DNA of 32,554 bases, taken from Opitutaceae bacterium. GTDB taxonomy: Bacteria > Verrucomicrobiota > Verrucomicrobiia > Opitutales > Opitutaceae. Under the pieces are notes generated by a model, which saw only the letters and a list, made by a program, of their open reading frames with translations, did not search any database and was not told where the DNA came from. The stretch is from NCBI GenBank assembly GCA_025360455.1, contig JANYCF010000104.1, positions 1-32,554 of the forward strand. The letters run 5' to 3'. Below, one piece after another: positions 9,793-32,501 of this stretch. The position numbers and the translations under genes are program-made. The first letter of the stretch is position 1. Each line of letters opens with the position of its first letter.

Positions 9793-10037
9793 GGGAGGGA
9801 AGGGAGCGCGGCCGCTCTCGGCTGCGACTTACCCAGAGTAGCCGCGTTGCCTTTCGGCTCCGCTCTAGGCCCTGAGCCTGCCGAACGGGGAGCGAACGCG
9901 ACAACGTGGTCGCTCGTTGTCATGACCACCTTTTCGGGCTATGCCCTCAAACGCGGCGACATAAGAATTCATTGATTTCTTTCTCTCACCTTGCCCGCAA
10001 CTTCCTCTTTGCTACCGTGTCGTAGTCGCAACTCTTC
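9793..10037. other. Intergenic region with short inverted repeats
   Basis: No gene is seen in these 245 bases between the pump operon and the AsmA-like gene. GAGCG/CGCTC flank a short core near 9813-9826. Further on, GAGCGA (9890-9895), GACAAC (9900-9905), TCGCTC (9910-9915) and GTTGTC (9916-9921) are interleaved so that the first pairs with the third and the second with the fourth. No stem with a T tract was found, so the end of the tolC transcript is not defined. A promoter for the next gene must lie here but none is convincing. Confidence 0.4.
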
Positions 10038-24876: not shown

Positions 24877-25981
24877 CGAAATGGATTGAGGCATGAGGCA
24901 ACCGGCATTCCACCAGTGTGCCGCCACCCAGCTGGGCTTCAACCTTGAAGCGGGCATGAATTATCCCGGCGCGGTGCGCCATGATGCGCAGCCCAAGACC
25001 CTGGCCTCTTTGGGGTGGCGGCGGCAGACCTGTCCCGTCATCATCCACGGACAGGATTAGACAATCGTCGCAGGACGTCAGGGAAATTTTCACGTGGGTT
25101 GCCTTGCCATGTTGCACCGCGTTTCGCACTGATTCCTGGGTGATGCGATAGAGATGGGTGGCCTCACTGCCAGCAGTGCAATCAGTTTCATCGTCACCTT
25201 GAAACTGACACTTGACGTGAAATTGTTCCGCTGCGGTCACGGCATATTCCTGCAATGCGGCGCGCAAGCCGTTGCGCTCAACTTCCGCGAGCAATAGGCC
25301 CCGGGCGAGACGCCGCGTCTTCTCAATACCTTCTTCCACCAGGCGAACGATTCTCCAGGCATCGGATGTCTCCGTCGCCTGACGGGCCTGTAATTTTTCT
25401 CCCAAAACCTGGCCGGCCAGGGCCGTTCCCGTGAGGTGCTGCCCGAGATCGTCATGCAGATCGCGGCCGATGCTGCTGCGCTCGCGTTCGCCAATTTCCA
25501 GAATCACTTTTTCCAATCGTTCTCGTTCGCTGATAACCTCGGTCAAGGCGACGGTGCGTTGTTGAATGCGCTGCTCCATTTCGCGTTGCAGGCTGCGTAC
25601 GGACGAGAAGAGCCAAACAATGATCAAATAGGTACTGAGTGCGATCGTGGCATTCCAGCAGGGCACGATCCAATGGCTGTAATGCGCCCCGGCGGCCAGA
25701 TCCCCCGCGATGCCGATGGCAACACAGATGACGGCAATCGTGCTGCCAAATCGCCACCCGGCGGCGGCCGTGCCCAGCACGACCGGCAGGCAATAGAAGA
25801 CCGACAGTGAAAATTCAAAGCTGAACAGAAAATCAAGCGCCCCAATGAGGGCAATCAGCAGCAGTGCGATGAGGGCGAGCTGTCGCCTGAGCCGCTGGTC
25901 TGAGGAAACGAGGATATTCTTCGCAAGGTTAGTCAGCCGGGTGAGAATGGCTTGGCGTGAAAAATGCGATGGAGCGGACAT
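24869..25981 (-). CDS. HisKA_3-type sensor histidine kinase
   Basis: A 370-residue membrane kinase. Residues about 34-128 hold several hydrophobic segments (LALIALLLIALIGALDFLF, LSVFYCLPVVLGTAAAGW, STIAVICVAIGIAGDLAAG, TIALSTYLIIVWLF) with very short loops, so the sensor is probably embedded in the membrane. A coiled linker (about 130-165) leads to the HisKA_3 dimerisation helix ERERSSIGRDLHDDLGQHL with phospho-acceptor H176. The HATPase_c domain has N288 (QESVRNAVQHG), the G1 box DDDGTGL (313-319) and the G2 box GQGLGL (327-332). The ATG at 25981 was preferred to a TTG nine bases upstream. The signal it detects cannot be inferred. Confidence 0.92.
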   Translation of the reverse strand: MSAPSHFSRQAILTRLTNLAKNILVSSDQRLRRQLALIALLLIALIGALDFLFSFEFSLSVFYCLPVVLGTAAAGWRFGSTIAVICVAIGIAGDLAAGAHYSHWIVPCWNATIALSTYLIIVWLFSSVRSLQREMEQRIQQRTVALTEVISERERLEKVILEIGERERSSIGRDLHDDLGQHLTGTALAGQVLGEKLQARQATETSDAWRIVRLVEEGIEKTRRLARGLLLAEVERNGLRAALQEYAVTAAEQFHVKCQFQGDDETDCTAGSEATHLYRITQESVRNAVQHGKATHVKISLTSCDDCLILSVDDDGTGLPPPPQRGQGLGLRIMAHRAGIIHARFKVEAQLGGGTLVECRLPHASIHFDA

Positions 25982-26137
25982 TCGGCTCAAAAGTCCCTAG
26001 GTGATTGGCTTTCGACAAGCGAGCAAATCAAAACCACCTGAACGGCGCGATAAACGATACGAGAGCAATTACGTCTTGTTTGTTTTGAATACGGAGCCCC
26101 GGAGCGAACTCGCTCCCCAGTCCCAACTCTTGGCTAA
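25982..26137. other. Gene-free spacer before the MITE-like element
   Basis: No gene is seen between the kinase start and the inverted-repeat element. The only clear structure is GGAGCGA (26101-26107) with TCGCTCC (26110-26116), a perfect 7-bp inverted repeat around AC. The promoter of the kinase gene must be here, reading leftwards, but no convincing -35/-10 pair was found. Confidence 0.4.
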
Positions 26138-26261
26138 GAGCCTATCCGAATAACGATGGTACGATGGTACGTATTTTGGGTAGGGCGAGTCGTCCCTGAC
26201 GAGCCGCGGCTCACCGGGACGGTTCGCCCTACCTCATTGCAGCCAATATTCGGATAGGCTC
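26138..26261. mobile_element. MITE-like element with IS5-type terminal inverted repeats
   Basis: The 124-base element starts GAGCCTATCCGAATA (26138-26152) and ends with its perfect complement TATTCGGATAGGCTC (26247-26261). TAA lies directly outside both ends (26135-26137 and 26262-26264), consistent with a 3-bp target duplication. Inside, 26179-26196 and 26216-26233 form a second inverted repeat of 18 bases with two mismatches, and GAGCCGCGGCTC at the centre is a perfect palindrome. ACGATGGT is repeated in tandem at 26153-26168. There is no coding capacity. Ends beginning GAGCC with a TNA target resemble the IS1031 subgroup of the IS5 family, so this is probably a non-autonomous derivative moved by such a transposase. 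It lies 73 bases before deoC. Confidence 0.65.
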
Positions 26262-26334
26262 TAAGCACGCCCGTACCTTTGTGATTCTTTGAGCGTGGCT
26301 TTTTCTACGATTCCCGCGATATTACGCCCGTTAT

Positions 26335-27123
26335 ATGAATACCACCGCTTATAAAACCACCGTGCGTGATCTCGCGCGGATGATCGATCACTCCCTCTTG
26401 CATCCGACGATGACCGACGCGCAGTTTGATGCAGGCTGCGCGTTGGCCGTCCGTTATGGTGTGGCGACGGTTTGCGTGAAACCTTGCGATGTGCCCCGGG
26501 CGGTCGAACTCCTCAAAGGGTCGGCGGTGTTGGTCTGCTCCGTCATTGGTTTTCCTCACGGCAACAGCCACACTTCGATCAAGATTCTCGAAACCGAACT
26601 CGCCATCCGCGAAGGCGCGAAAGAAATCGATATGGTGGCCAATGCGGGGAAAGTGCTTGGCGGCAATCTGGCCTACGTCGCCGCAGATATCAAGGCGGTC
26701 AACGACGCCTGCATCACTCGCGGTGCCATCTTGAAGGTCATTTTTGAAAACGATTACCTGCAGGATGCGCACATCATATCGCTCTGTGAAATTTGTACCA
26801 AGATCGGCGTGGCCTTTGTGAAAACCTCCACCGGCTACGGTTTCGTCAAGCAACCGAACGGCGACTATAACTACAAGGGCGCAACCGAGCATCACCTGAA
26901 ATTGATGCGCGCCTATTGTTCGGAGAAAATCCAAATCAAGGCTGCTGGCGGCATTCGCACCCTTGACGAACTGCTGCGCGCCCGCGCCCTAGGCGTCACG
27001 CGCATCGGTGCCTCCGCCACTGAAGCGATGCTCAACGAAGCGGTGCAGCGTGGCTTCCCAGGGGAATCCGCGGTTGGGATCGGGCCGGCACTTTCTACTT
27101 CCTCTACTCCCTCCGGATATTAG
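26335..27123 (+). CDS. deoC: Deoxyribose-phosphate aldolase
   Basis: DeoC is a class I aldolase that cleaves 2-deoxyribose 5-phosphate to glyceraldehyde 3-phosphate and acetaldehyde, the last step of deoxyribonucleoside catabolism. The 262-residue product has all catalytic features: D99 in EIDMV, the Schiff-base lysine K163 in FVKTSTGYGF, and K202 in IKAAGGIRT. ARMIDHSLLHPTMT near the start and SVIGFPHGNSHT at 69-80 also fit the family. Other nucleoside-catabolism genes (deoA, deoD, cdd) are not in the window. The last 15 or so residues are Ser/Thr/Pro-rich and beyond the usual family end. The start has no Shine-Dalgarno sequence, and a MITE-like element lies just upstream. Confidence 0.96.
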   Translation: MNTTAYKTTVRDLARMIDHSLLHPTMTDAQFDAGCALAVRYGVATVCVKPCDVPRAVELLKGSAVLVCSVIGFPHGNSHTSIKILETELAIREGAKEIDMVANAGKVLGGNLAYVAADIKAVNDACITRGAILKVIFENDYLQDAHIISLCEICTKIGVAFVKTSTGYGFVKQPNGDYNYKGATEHHLKLMRAYCSEKIQIKAAGGIRTLDELLRARALGVTRIGASATEAMLNEAVQRGFPGESAVGIGPALSTSSTPSGY

Positions 27124-27159
27124 TCAGCGGGGAAGTCGGCTTGGTTGCTTGGAAATAAT

Positions 27160-27259
27160 GCAGAGCTCGATTTTTTGTTTTCCGGGGTCAAATCCCCGGG
27201 AGCTTGCGTGGATGGGTAGCTGCGAGCGCCCGCGAACAGAAGGCAGACCACTCGCGGGC
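27160..27259 (+). other. Structured spacer after deoC: compound hairpin and second hairpin
   Basis: No gene is seen between deoC and the convergent small gene (27124-27341). GCAGAGCTC (27160-27168) pairs with GAGCTTGC (27200-27207) over 8 bp with one bulged G. Directly stacked on it, CCGGGG (27182-27187) pairs with CCCCGG (27194-27199) around TCAAAT. Between them on the 5' side is an unpaired T-rich bulge, 27169-27181. Farther on, GCCCGCGA (27228-27235) pairs with TCGCGGGC (27252-27259). No canonical terminator T tract follows. It could be a structured 3' UTR, a small RNA or a decayed repeat; none is proven. Confidence 0.4.
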
Positions 27260-28778: not shown

Positions 28779-29057
28779 GGTTGCCTGCTCGACGGCGAAA
28801 TAATATCACGCCGGGTGAATTAGGAAGGGGGGTAGGACGGTCATCGAAAATCCACCACACACTCACCGCCATGGATTTTCAAAATTTTCAACTTTTAGAT
28901 TTTCCGCTGCCCGCTTTCAAGATTTTCAGAATCGCCCACGACAGGGGAATCCTGACCACGAACCCTAAACTGCATGACCTGACTCCTGACCGTACCATGT
29001 CAACTTTTGCCTTTCCCGGGAAGGTGTGAGGGGCAAAGTTACGGATGTTACCCACGC
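28779..29057. other. Intergenic region, T-rich
   Basis: Nothing firm is seen in these 279 bases. The strand is T-rich from about 28870 to 28935, with GATTTTC repeated three times. CGGCG (28793-28797) and CGCCG (28809-28813) could form a weak stem after the TerB-like gene. A 52-codon reading frame starts at 28871 but shows no protein-like features. A promoter for the long gene downstream is expected here. Confidence 0.35.
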
Positions 29058-32000
29058 ATGAAATTACCCCGTGCTTCGCTGGCGGCGCTCTTAACCGCTC
29101 AGGCTCAAGAAACCTTCAACGATTGCGCTGCGAAGTTCATGCTGATCGCGCTCGTCCAACAGCTCGCGCACGCGGCGGGAGATGATCCGAAACCGCTGAT
29201 CGCGAGGATCGCCGCACTTTTTATTCTGCCGTACGTGCTGTTCGGTCCAATCTGTGGCTGGATGGCCGATCGTTTCTCCAAACGTACGGTGCTGAACTGG
29301 GTGCTGGCGGCGCAAATTGCCGTGATGGGGCTTTTGATGTTCGCCCTCTGGTGCCACTCCTTGCGCGGGGCGATGGGTTGTTTTTTTCTCCTCTCCGTGG
29401 TGATGGCGCTGCTCTCTCCGGCCAAGCGTGGCATTTTGTTGGAGTACGTCGGCCCGATGAAACTTTCGCGGGTGGTCGGTTTCATGGAGATGGCCAATAT
29501 CACGGCCATGCTTGTGGGCTCGTATGCCGGCGGGCAATGGTTCGCGCACTGGCTGGCGGGCGGCGGTGACGTGTGGGCAGCGGGACTGAAAGTGGCGGGA
29601 GTTCTGACGGGGTCGTCGGTGGTGGCGTGGCTGATTTTTAAAATAACCCCACCGACTCAGGCACAAGCGCAGGAGCCCTTTCGCGGCAGTCTTTTGGTGC
29701 GGCATTTTTCGGATTTGGCCGTTGTGTGGCAGGATCGTCCGTTGTGGCGGGCGACGATGGGGATTTGTTTTTTCTACGCCTTGGGGGGCTACCTGTCGCT
29801 GCTGATGCCGCAGATCGCGTACGAACTGCAGCAGGGCGGCGTGCAGACCAGTGCGGTGTCGAGCACGCTGCTGTTGATGGTGGGCGTGGGGACGATGCTG
29901 GGCAATCTTTCCGCCGGGCTGCTTTCGCGGCGCGGAGTTGAACTCGGCTTGATTCCGCTCGGGGGGACGTTGCTGGTGGCTGCGCTGATCGCGTTGGGCT
30001 TGCAACCGGCCGGAGGTCGGGCGTTCACGGGTCTGCTGATAGTAGGGGGCTTTTCATCCGGATTTTTTCTCGTGCCACTCTACGCCTATATCCAACAACG
30101 AGCAGCTAACGAACGGCGAGGGCGGACTCTGGCCGGTGTCAGTCTGCTCGACAGTTTGGCGGGGTTTTTCGCCAGCGGGCTTTATCTGCTCGTCGCGGGC
30201 GATCAAACCTTGGGCTGGCTCCCGTCGTCCCAGATATTCCTGCTTGCGGCGCTGACGCTCGGCATGCTCCTCTACGGGCTTTGGCATATTCCCCATCACA
30301 CGGTGTGCACGGTGATGCGGTTGATCGGGCCGATTTTCTACCGGGTGAAATCTCGCGGTTGGGAAAATATTCCCACGGGTGGGGCGCTGATGATCTGTAA
30401 TCATTTGTCGTACGTGGATGCCGTGGTACTACAAATTGCTTCGCCGCGGCCGATTCGCTTCATCGCGTTTGCGGGTTTCGCGAAGAGTCCGTTTCTGCGT
30501 TTTATTTTTCGAGCGGCGGGAGTGATCCCCGTGGCGCCCAACAAACCCATGAAGGGTATTCGCCTGGCCTGGGACGCGATCAAGGCGGGCGAACTGGTGT
30601 GCGTGTTTCCCGAGGGGGCCATCTCACGCACGGGGCAGTTGATGCAGCTTAAGCGCGGTTTCGGTTTGATTGTGGAGTTGGCAAAAGTCCCCTTGGTGCC
30701 GGCGGTGATCGATGGACTTTGGGGCTCAATTTATTCTTTCGCCGGCAATAAATATCTGTGGAAATCTCCGCGACTGATGCCGACGCCCGTCTGCGTGCTC
30801 TTCGGCAGCCCCATGCCCCACGAGCAGGTGACGCTGAGTTCAGCGCGACGGGCACTGCTGGATTTGGGCGAGGAAGCATTTCAAGAGCGCCCGGTTTTGA
30901 AACGACATTTGGGCCGCGAGGCGGTACAGGCACTGGCGAAATATCCGCGGCATATCGTAATCGTGGATCGCACGGGTGAACGGCGCGAGCTGTCGGGTGC
31001 GGAATTGCTGGCTGTGGTGGCGGTCTTGTCGCGCCGACTGCGGGCGACCGTGCCGGAAGCCCGGATCGGTATCGTGCTGCCGCCCGGGGCAGGAGCCTTC
31101 ATCGCCAATCTGGCGGTATCGTGTGCGGGGAAGACTCCGGTGAATTTGAATTTCACCACGGGGCGCGCCTCTTTGGAGGCCTCGCTGCGCTTGGGTGAAA
31201 TTAGCACGGTGCTCACGGCGGATGCGCTGCGGGAAAAGCTGCCGAACTTTCCGTTCCCCGCTCGGACACTGGATCTGAAAACGGAAATTGAATCAGCGGG
31301 TGGCAAGCGAGCGATTTGGCCGTGGTGGCTCGCCGCACAGGTGATCCCGAATCAATGGCTGGCGGATTTGATGCAGGTGCCGCGCACCGGTGATCGGGCC
31401 GAAGCGGCGTTACTTTTCACCAGTGGCAGTTCCGGTGAACCAAAGGGCGTGGTGCTCAGCCACCGCAACATCATCGCGAATTGCGCGCAGATTTCCTCGC
31501 TGTCGATTTTGCCTGAATCCACTTCGTTGCTCGGATGTCTGCCGGTTTTTCACTCTTTCGGATTCACGGTGACGCTGTGGTATCCGCTCTTGCGCGGTTG
31601 CAGTGTGGTTACGGTGCCCAGTCCGCTCGACACGAGAAAAATTATCGACGCGATCAAGCAGGAGAAAGTAACGGTGATGCTGGGCGCACCGACCTTTATC
31701 CGACCGATGCTTAAGCGGGCAACGAAGGAAGAAATCCGCACGCTCAAGCTGGTGATTTCCGGGGCGGAGAAATTACCCTTGGAACTTTACGAAGCATTTT
31801 TGAAGCAATTTGAGATCGAGATTTTGCAAGGGTATGGACTGACCGAGACGACACCGGTCGCGAGTATCAATCAGTATCATCCGCTCATCACGACCACGAC
31901 GGCGGAGCATCAGGAAGGGAAGCGCGTGGGGGCGGTCGGCCGCCTATTGCCTGGAACTACCGTACGCATCGTCGATCCCGATTCAGGTGATGAATTGCCA

Positions 32001-32501
32001 ATGACCTCCACGGGAATGTTGTGGCTAAAAGGCCCGAATATTTTCACCGGTTACCTCAAGGATGAAGAAAAGACCGCGGCGGCGCTGAAAGAAGGTTGGT
32101 TCATCACGGGGGATTTGGGGCGATTGGATGAGGATGGTTTTTTATTTATCGAAGGTCGGCAGTCGCGTTTTTCCAAGATTGGAGGTGAGATGGTGCCGCA
32201 CGGCACGGTGGAGCAACACATCAACACGGCCTTCGGCTGGGAGCATCATGAAGTGCCAGTGGCGGTGATTACGAGTGTGCCGGACAGTAGCAAAGGAGAG
32301 GCCTTGGTTCTTCTGACTACGCAAGACGTCACGGTGGCGGATATTCGCGGCAAGCTACTGGAGGCCGGGTTGCCTAATCTCTGGGTGCCAAAGGCGGTCT
32401 GCAAGGTGGAGCGCATCCCGGTCTTGGGCACCGGCAAGACCGACCTGAAAGCATGTCGCACCCTTGCACTGGATAAGACTGGAGAAGCGGCGAGCGCTTG
32501 A
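29058..32501 (+). CDS. Fused LplT transporter / PlsC acyltransferase / acyl-ACP ligase (Aas-type)
   Basis: A 1147-residue three-part membrane enzyme for lysophospholipid recycling. Residues about 1-420 are an MFS transporter like LplT, which flips lysophospholipids inward (opening SLAALLTAQAQETFNDCAAKFML; loop GWMADRFSKRTVLNW). Residues about 430-630 are a PlsC-type acyltransferase with H449-x4-D454 (NHLSYVDAV) and FPEGAISRTG. Residues about 640-1147 are an AMP-forming acyl ligase: FTSGSSGEPKGVVLSHRN (from 787), GYGLTETTPV (925-934), WFITGDLGRLDEDGFLFIEGR, and a terminal GTGKTDLKA with the catalytic Lys. In E. coli lplT and aas are separate neighbouring genes; here all are on one chain. The ATG at 29058 was chosen because LplT similarity begins there. 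Confidence 0.93.
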   Translation: MKLPRASLAALLTAQAQETFNDCAAKFMLIALVQQLAHAAGDDPKPLIARIAALFILPYVLFGPICGWMADRFSKRTVLNWVLAAQIAVMGLLMFALWCHSLRGAMGCFFLLSVVMALLSPAKRGILLEYVGPMKLSRVVGFMEMANITAMLVGSYAGGQWFAHWLAGGGDVWAAGLKVAGVLTGSSVVAWLIFKITPPTQAQAQEPFRGSLLVRHFSDLAVVWQDRPLWRATMGICFFYALGGYLSLLMPQIAYELQQGGVQTSAVSSTLLLMVGVGTMLGNLSAGLLSRRGVELGLIPLGGTLLVAALIALGLQPAGGRAFTGLLIVGGFSSGFFLVPLYAYIQQRAANERRGRTLAGVSLLDSLAGFFASGLYLLVAGDQTLGWLPSSQIFLLAALTLGMLLYGLWHIPHHTVCTVMRLIGPIFYRVKSRGWENIPTGGALMICNHLSYVDAVVLQIASPRPIRFIAFAGFAKSPFLRFIFRAAGVIPVAPNKPMKGIRLAWDAIKAGELVCVFPEGAISRTGQLMQLKRGFGLIVELAKVPLVPAVIDGLWGSIYSFAGNKYLWKSPRLMPTPVCVLFGSPMPHEQVTLSSARRALLDLGEEAFQERPVLKRHLGREAVQALAKYPRHIVIVDRTGERRELSGAELLAVVAVLSRRLRATVPEARIGIVLPPGAGAFIANLAVSCAGKTPVNLNFTTGRASLEASLRLGEISTVLTADALREKLPNFPFPARTLDLKTEIESAGGKRAIWPWWLAAQVIPNQWLADLMQVPRTGDRAEAALLFTSGSSGEPKGVVLSHRNIIANCAQISSLSILPESTSLLGCLPVFHSFGFTVTLWYPLLRGCSVVTVPSPLDTRKIIDAIKQEKVTVMLGAPTFIRPMLKRATKEEIRTLKLVISGAEKLPLELYEAFLKQFEIEILQGYGLTETTPVASINQYHPLITTTTAEHQEGKRVGAVGRLLPGTTVRIVDPDSGDELPMTSTGMLWLKGPNIFTGYLKDEEKTAAALKEGWFITGDLGRLDEDGFLFIEGRQSRFSKIGGEMVPHGTVEQHINTAFGWEHHEVPVAVITSVPDSSKGEALVLLTTQDVTVADIRGKLLEAGLPNLWVPKAVCKVERIPVLGTGKTDLKACRTLALDKTGEAASA

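Follow-up and report, generated by a model that had tools for sequence, protein, structure and literature searches.

Identical terminal ends around different REPINs: a MITE-like element upstream of deoC in an Opitutaceae bacterium, and its counterparts in relatives

Described systems closest to the element

GTAG REPs, REPINs and RAYTs are already established, and the accessible part of PMC3733652 describes a strong enrichment of GTAG repeats in O. terrae (Verrucomicrobia). The element reported here resembles the REPINs, GTAG REPs and RAYTs presented there and in the accessible part of PMC3116915 in having two inverted GTAG hairpins, solo copies and RAYT genes flanked by the same REPs; unlike those REPINs, it lies inside IS ends and target duplications, so that a DDE transposase could move it. 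REP dimers within palindromes were published in 2013, and a link to transposon ends is absent from the accessible part of that paper (PMC3733652). In two of its species, A. variabilis and H. neapolitanus, REP dimers are nested in outer palindromes, as in our case, and no REP-free outer palindromes were found in these two; however, each species has one palindrome and one REP type, and transposon ends, target marks and an IS go unnamed in the same part of the text (PMC3733652). QMITE2 of Coxiella burnetii is likewise a MITE containing a GTAG REP, but according to the accessible part of PMC5896051 its direct repeats are 7-11 nt long, its helper is unnamed, it has one REP type, and the REP is the target of IS1111.

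A literature search of titles and the beginnings of abstracts, with subscription papers mostly out of reach, returned no paper in which a single set of IS ends encloses different REPINs. Like IS5-family MITEs, the element is non-coding, stays under about 300 bp, and has short inverted repeats at its termini and target marks of 3 bp (TNA); its end sequence recurs at IS ends of relatives. In contrast to these MITEs, its interior is a host REP dimer, the kind of which varies by species under the same ends. The genome studied belongs to the Opitutaceae, the family of which O. terrae, presumably Opitutus terrae, is taken to be a member.

The element between a histidine kinase gene and deoC

The window, by which we mean the whole stretch of 32,554 nucleotides that was analysed, comes from a genome of 4.85 Mb, referred to below as the window genome. 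The 15-bp terminal ends of the element are called shell-1. The earlier note on this DNA had described perfect 15-bp ends with TAA on both sides, a nested inverted repeat and a central 12-bp palindrome. The ends and flanks are indeed present in the sequence (Table 1), and a repeat search extends the outer arms to 20 nt at 95% (26133-26152 / 26247-26266) and recovers the nested pair at 89% (26179-26196 / 26216-26233); the palindrome was seen by eye. What the earlier reading overlooked is that the inner inverted repeat is a REPIN, and this is the more interesting part of the element. The core consists of two inverted units, each beginning with GTAG and each able to fold as a hairpin. Folded as RNA, the 124 nt reach -72.2 kcal/mol (z -8.2), and as DNA the fold has a z of -6.8.

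Table 1. Positions of the element's features in the window, and of shell-2 elements in the window genome
Feature	Position	Strand	Remark
Left target duplication, TAA, 3 bp	26135..26137	.	Equals right flank
MITE type A, 124 bp, shell-1 ends and REPIN core A	26138..26261	+	Repeat and copy searches
Left terminal inverted repeat GAGCCTATCCGAATA	26138..26152	+	Same sequence at IS ends of the relatives G447 and G482
REPIN core, two inverted GTAG-tagged REP units	26179..26233	.	Kind also solo in window genome, beside RAYT gene
REP unit 1, GTAG and hairpin, arms GTCG/TGAC	26180..26207	+	
REP unit 2, GTAG and hairpin, arms ACCG/CGGT	26206..26232	-	
12-bp palindrome GAGCCGCGGCTC, REPIN centre	about 26201..26212	.	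By eye
Right terminal inverted repeat, exact complement of left, 15/15 bases	26247..26261	-	
Right target duplication, TAA, 3 bp	26262..26264	.	Sequence read
Shell-2 elements, window genome	L054:1264-1385, L003:1383-1501, L078:1377-1497, L003:151-267		

As the earlier note had placed it, the element sits between a kinase gene and deoC, in a divergent gap of 344 bp. The histidine kinase gene (mechanical ORF start 25990, minus strand; HisKA_3 and HATPase_c) is adjoined by a LuxR-type response regulator, and deoC (PF01791) has its ORF start at 26335 on the plus strand, 73 bp after the end of the element. A search of 25500-27200 against Rfam gave a single chance-level match, which lies outside the element. 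Elsewhere in the window, an open frame of 1164 aa at 29007-32501 looks by eye like a fusion of a transporter, an acyltransferase and an acyl-CoA ligase.

The earlier suggestion of a non-autonomous and possibly multi-copy element is borne out by 11 near-full-length type A copies (81-100% identity to a 141-bp query) and additional truncated ones in the window genome. Six of these copies are about 124 bp long and 93-100% identical, and the other five measure 147-149 bp, with 81-82% identity and some 24 extra nt within one REP. Elements of type A (L007-L011, window genome) and of type C (L117, genome G005) have an insert of about 24 nt in apparently the same position within the REP, the two sequences being different. 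Altogether, the 15-mer of shell-1 occurs at 50 sites in the window genome with up to two mismatches (27 forward and 23 reverse); since the reversed control pattern gave 0 forward and 0 reverse sites under the same limit, these occurrences are not due to chance.

We defined two-ended elements as those with both ends, 85 to 200 bp apart, and compiled a catalogue of 76 rows, one of which, from genome G536, was dropped since its second end was a chance match inside another element. The two relatives compared in most detail here are a congener (G005) and a member of another genus (G049). Two-ended shell-1 elements number 19 in the window genome, 8 in G005 and 32 in G049. In this order, the 3-bp flanks are identical in 9/19, 7/8 and 9/32 elements, TNA is present on both sides in 13/19, 7/8 and 10/32, and on at least one side in 19/19, 8/8 and 31/32; the flanks of the copy L010, whose right end has a 1-nt deletion, were counted as unequal although TAA is readable on both sides. 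The TNA target named by the earlier note thus holds on at least one side in all 19 two-ended elements of the window genome. We take this target to be a rule of the IS1031 subgroup, and it is the sole feature of the element that fits that subgroup. Many copies of G049 (e.g. L114, L226 and L235) combine TNA at one flank with unrelated bases at the opposite flank, a pattern that could have arisen via recombination or via transposition without duplication.

To identify uninvaded sites, we fused the two flanks of the element in 75 of the 76 rows of the catalogue and searched all retrieved DNA for them; six rows gave a match across the junction, two of them clear. The flanks of a type A MITE (L002) are continuous through window positions 9839-9911 and through L021, where TGA is single. 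Likewise, the flanks of a G049 element in L231 are continuous through L238, where TAA is single. In each case a one-base change affects one of the two duplication copies (TTA for TGA, and CAA for TAA, respectively), and the remaining four junction-spanning matches (L127, L236, L238 and L313) are not clean. The search for empty sites proposed earlier has therefore yielded uninvaded counterparts with a single TNA for two elements. Window positions 9839-9911 belong to a dispersed repeat, of which the L002 copy holds the type A MITE. At C251 (L075:222-341), a type B MITE is situated within or next to what is left of a DDE transposase gene.

A decayed IS start, GTGCCTATCCGAAAA, is present in the window genome, with TTAA before it, and begins 57 nt ahead of an open stretch. 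The first 48 residues encoded there match DUF4096, a domain of IS4/5 transposases (E 1.6e-7); the 31.9 bits are under the cut-off of 34.3, and this score belongs to the remnant in the window genome. A search with these 48 residues among 252 genomes of the family gave matches in 6, the window genome included. In one of them, G447, all four transposase matches are preceded by an exact 15-bp end, which starts 58 nt before the match and has TTA or TAA outside it. The putative opposite end of the IS, recognised by eye as the reverse complement of a transposase tail, begins with these 15 bases in both G447 and G482. All four transposase matches of G447 and the opposite ends of both genomes are at contig edges, off which these IS pieces run. 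The motif TNAGAGCCTATCCGAA was detected in 14/252 genomes of the family and 6/372 of the order, and a plasmid collection gave no match to the 48-aa IS start at E up to 1e-3. We also considered PF01609 transposases as the shell-1 helper and rejected them: the 14 matches in the window genome and the 4 in G005/G049 have no shell-1 end nearby (up to 3 mismatches), except for the one match that lies beside an inserted type B element.

The candidate helper of shell-1, judged from sequence, would be an IS5-type IS that shares the 15-bp ends. The search for an IS5-family transposase with the same ends, proposed in the earlier note, led in G447 to a transposase start behind an exact end and in the window genome to a decayed start. 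The earlier note had also named a contrary outcome, a lone copy conserved upstream of deoC with no IS sharing its ends; the element is multi-copy and IS ends were found. The MITE reading of the element is supported.

REPIN cores, RAYT genes and a second shell

The core of the element also exists outside the shell. Ten complete solo copies of core A were found in the window genome (L014, L015, L017, L019-L024 and L026), each of them more than 150 bp away from any shell-1 or shell-2 end, and both tags are kept in nine of them. The 124-bp query had matches in 21 of 95 genomes, including the window genome; among the matches listed, those in relatives are confined to the core and a margin of no more than about a dozen bases, with the exception of one in G005 that extends to the right end. 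The arms of the REP hairpins covary. Across 126 units from the retrieved loci, with 44 distinct arm pairs, 17 of them fully paired, the mean number of paired positions is 2.86 out of 4 versus 1.84 after shuffling, and 0 of 2000 shuffles reach the observed value, which is not to be read as a probability given that the units are related.

Three REP types were found at RAYT genes. A gene of contig C97 in the window genome stands between two type A REPINs, with 2-3 mismatches per unit, and B REPs flank a gene of contig C164 in the same genome, as C REPs flank a gene in G005. All three pass the NCBIfam RAYT cut-off with 93-94 bits versus 80 for NF047646 (94.1 bits for the C97 gene); for Pfam Y1_Tnp the C97 gene reaches 21.6 versus 23, and the type C gene is likewise just under the cut-off. 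The RAYT genes of A and C are 47% identical and those of A and B 34%, so the closeness of A and C among the genes parallels the closeness of the two REP types. Among 14 Y1_Tnp matches in the window genome 10 were inspected, and two (C97 and C164) are flanked by REPs. C-like REPs (up to 5 mismatches) are present at 3 of 8 Y1_Tnp matches in G005, and no D REPs were found near the 5 matches in G049. The C164 locus (L038:1335-1952) has, besides its RAYT gene and the B REPs on both sides, one MITE-B arm on the right with a diverged end; this arm agrees in 37-48 of 57 bases with four of the five B copies compared and in 29 with the fifth.

The same shell encloses different REPINs in different genomes. 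In G005 and G049, which were sampled by end sequence alone, 11/11 exact shell-1 ends lead into core C and 40 of 41 distinct ends into core D, respectively. The G049 figure includes 39 ends assigned by script and one, cut by a contig edge, by eye; the 41 contexts come from 42 end places, two of which share a context, and at the remaining end (C10:1527) another sequence follows. The window genome has 26 exact ends, with 15 leading into A, 8 into B and 3 unscored by script, which by eye are a truncated A, a longer-form A and a B-like arm leading elsewhere. The intact GTAG...CTAC order is found in 11/19 two-ended shell-1 elements of the window genome, 8/8 of G005 and 30/32 of G049, the others having altered tags or having lost one unit. 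Single elements with B were assigned by script in G229 and G480; by eye, there is one with B in G341 and one with D in G469, and other GTAG dimers in G430 (two kinds), G536 and G447. In addition, three elements of 178-179 bp (L255, L311 and L315, in genomes G283, G464 and G517) have shell-1 ends around a palindromic middle without GTAG. Altogether, the 69 two-ended shell-1 elements comprise 59 with a computed REP type, 7 with a GTAG- or REP-like core seen by eye and these 3; none of the 69 is plainly empty.

Type D is a REP family of its own. Its units number 175 in G049, 131 in G469, 67 in G480, 32 in G005, 21 in G229, 8 in G341 and 0 in the window genome. G005 has its 32 units although shell-1 holds C there, and G469 has 131 versus one exact shell-1 end; D is thus not part of the shell as such. 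Solo D dimers were found in G469, G229, G005 and G341/G480. The 149 kb of G049 read around the elements contain 68 D units near shell ends and 0 elsewhere; one solo D unit was seen at L345, a locus assigned to G049 by the order of loci. The spacers of three shell-linked D dimers in G469 differ from each other and from the spacer of G049, which suggests that shell and D were joined more than once.

A second shell, unrelated to the first, is present in the window genome, where ends GAGGGCGTCTAAAAAGG enclose REPIN E in four elements (Table 1), all with T-N-A on both sides and two with identical flanks. Such an end also follows directly (L044:3167, contig C140) after an apparently frame-shifted DDE transposase (PF01609, 29.5 bits), and is possibly the end of a partner IS. 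Two chimeras (L079:1501-1657 and L251:1247-1385) have one end from each shell, with the change-over by eye within the REPIN. In L003 and L078, a shell-1 element abuts a shell-2 element and the TNA is shared. The chimeras, the abutting elements and the MITE-B arm of C164 are the best hints of an exchange of shells and cores.

Origin of the composite element

Taken as a whole, the element is very probably a MITE with a REPIN filling, in which shell and core come from separate mobile kinds; its identity, as a MITE by its ends and a REPIN by its core, is well supported. Judging from the ends, the flanks and the uninvaded sites, an IS5-type transposase would act in trans and move the whole 124-bp unit via its ends, and the inner REPIN would once have been moved by its RAYT, which perhaps still recognises it. 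Shell and REPIN would have been joined repeatedly. Either IS ends would have closed around a REPIN at the birth of a MITE, or REPIN cores would have exchanged sequence with each other, and the latter would explain the chimeras with one end of each shell. More broadly, we tentatively propose, with confidence a little short of even, that in Opitutaceae the REPIN of a given host has time and again been enclosed by IS ends, and that these ends are of two or more unrelated kinds. The outcome would be a modular class of elements served by two transposases, in which a DDE transposase works on the shell and a RAYT works on the core, while shells and cores are exchanged with the core as homology joint. 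A palindromic REP dimer may be required in such elements, because no plainly empty shell was seen.

The joining might also have proceeded from the inside, with RAYTs putting REPINs into pre-existing MITEs, which would make the MITE a preferred landing place and no vehicle built around the REPIN. REPINs are mobile, and the accessible part of PMC3733652 reports REP dimers inserted in palindromes of other species, as well as hundreds of REP-free targets in T. roseum; moreover, the RAYT gene of C164 has its MITE-B arm attached. Among the 69 two-ended shell-1 elements, however, no plainly empty shell was found, and most copies of one type have common arms and a common core, as if multiplied as one unit, so we regard insertion into ready-made MITEs as rather unlikely. 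An ordinary MITE that merely needs a palindromic middle, with an incidental likeness to REPs, is improbable. It would accommodate the three palindromic elements without GTAG and the restriction of D units to the vicinity of shell ends in the part of G049 read by place, but it is contradicted for A and D by solo core A copies and by solo D dimers in other genomes, for A-C by the RAYT genes with flanking REPs of these types, and further by the compensatory arm changes in A. Least probable is a conserved regulatory hairpin of deoC, despite the position of the element shortly before this gene, the divergent gap and the strong fold. The element is multi-copy at unrelated places, and the scan of 25990-26340 gave no promoter- or terminator-like site. 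When 19 deoC loci of other genomes (80 retrieved) were compared for synteny and an uninvaded site, DeoC alone matched, besides one weak ABC match; since the kinase and the regulator of the window had no match in these 19 loci, the neighbourhood of deoC is not conserved there. A role in regulating deoC is thus contradicted as the primary one, and a secondary role acquired later is possible.

The usual view is that REPINs depend on RAYTs and that a MITE is a shortened relative of an IS. Elements with the properties of MITE and REPIN alike, and with the same ends around different REPINs, would give REPINs a second route of spread. They would also offer a possible answer to why REP dimers occur within outer palindromes of other bacteria, and with them the origin of a MITE interior becomes directly testable.
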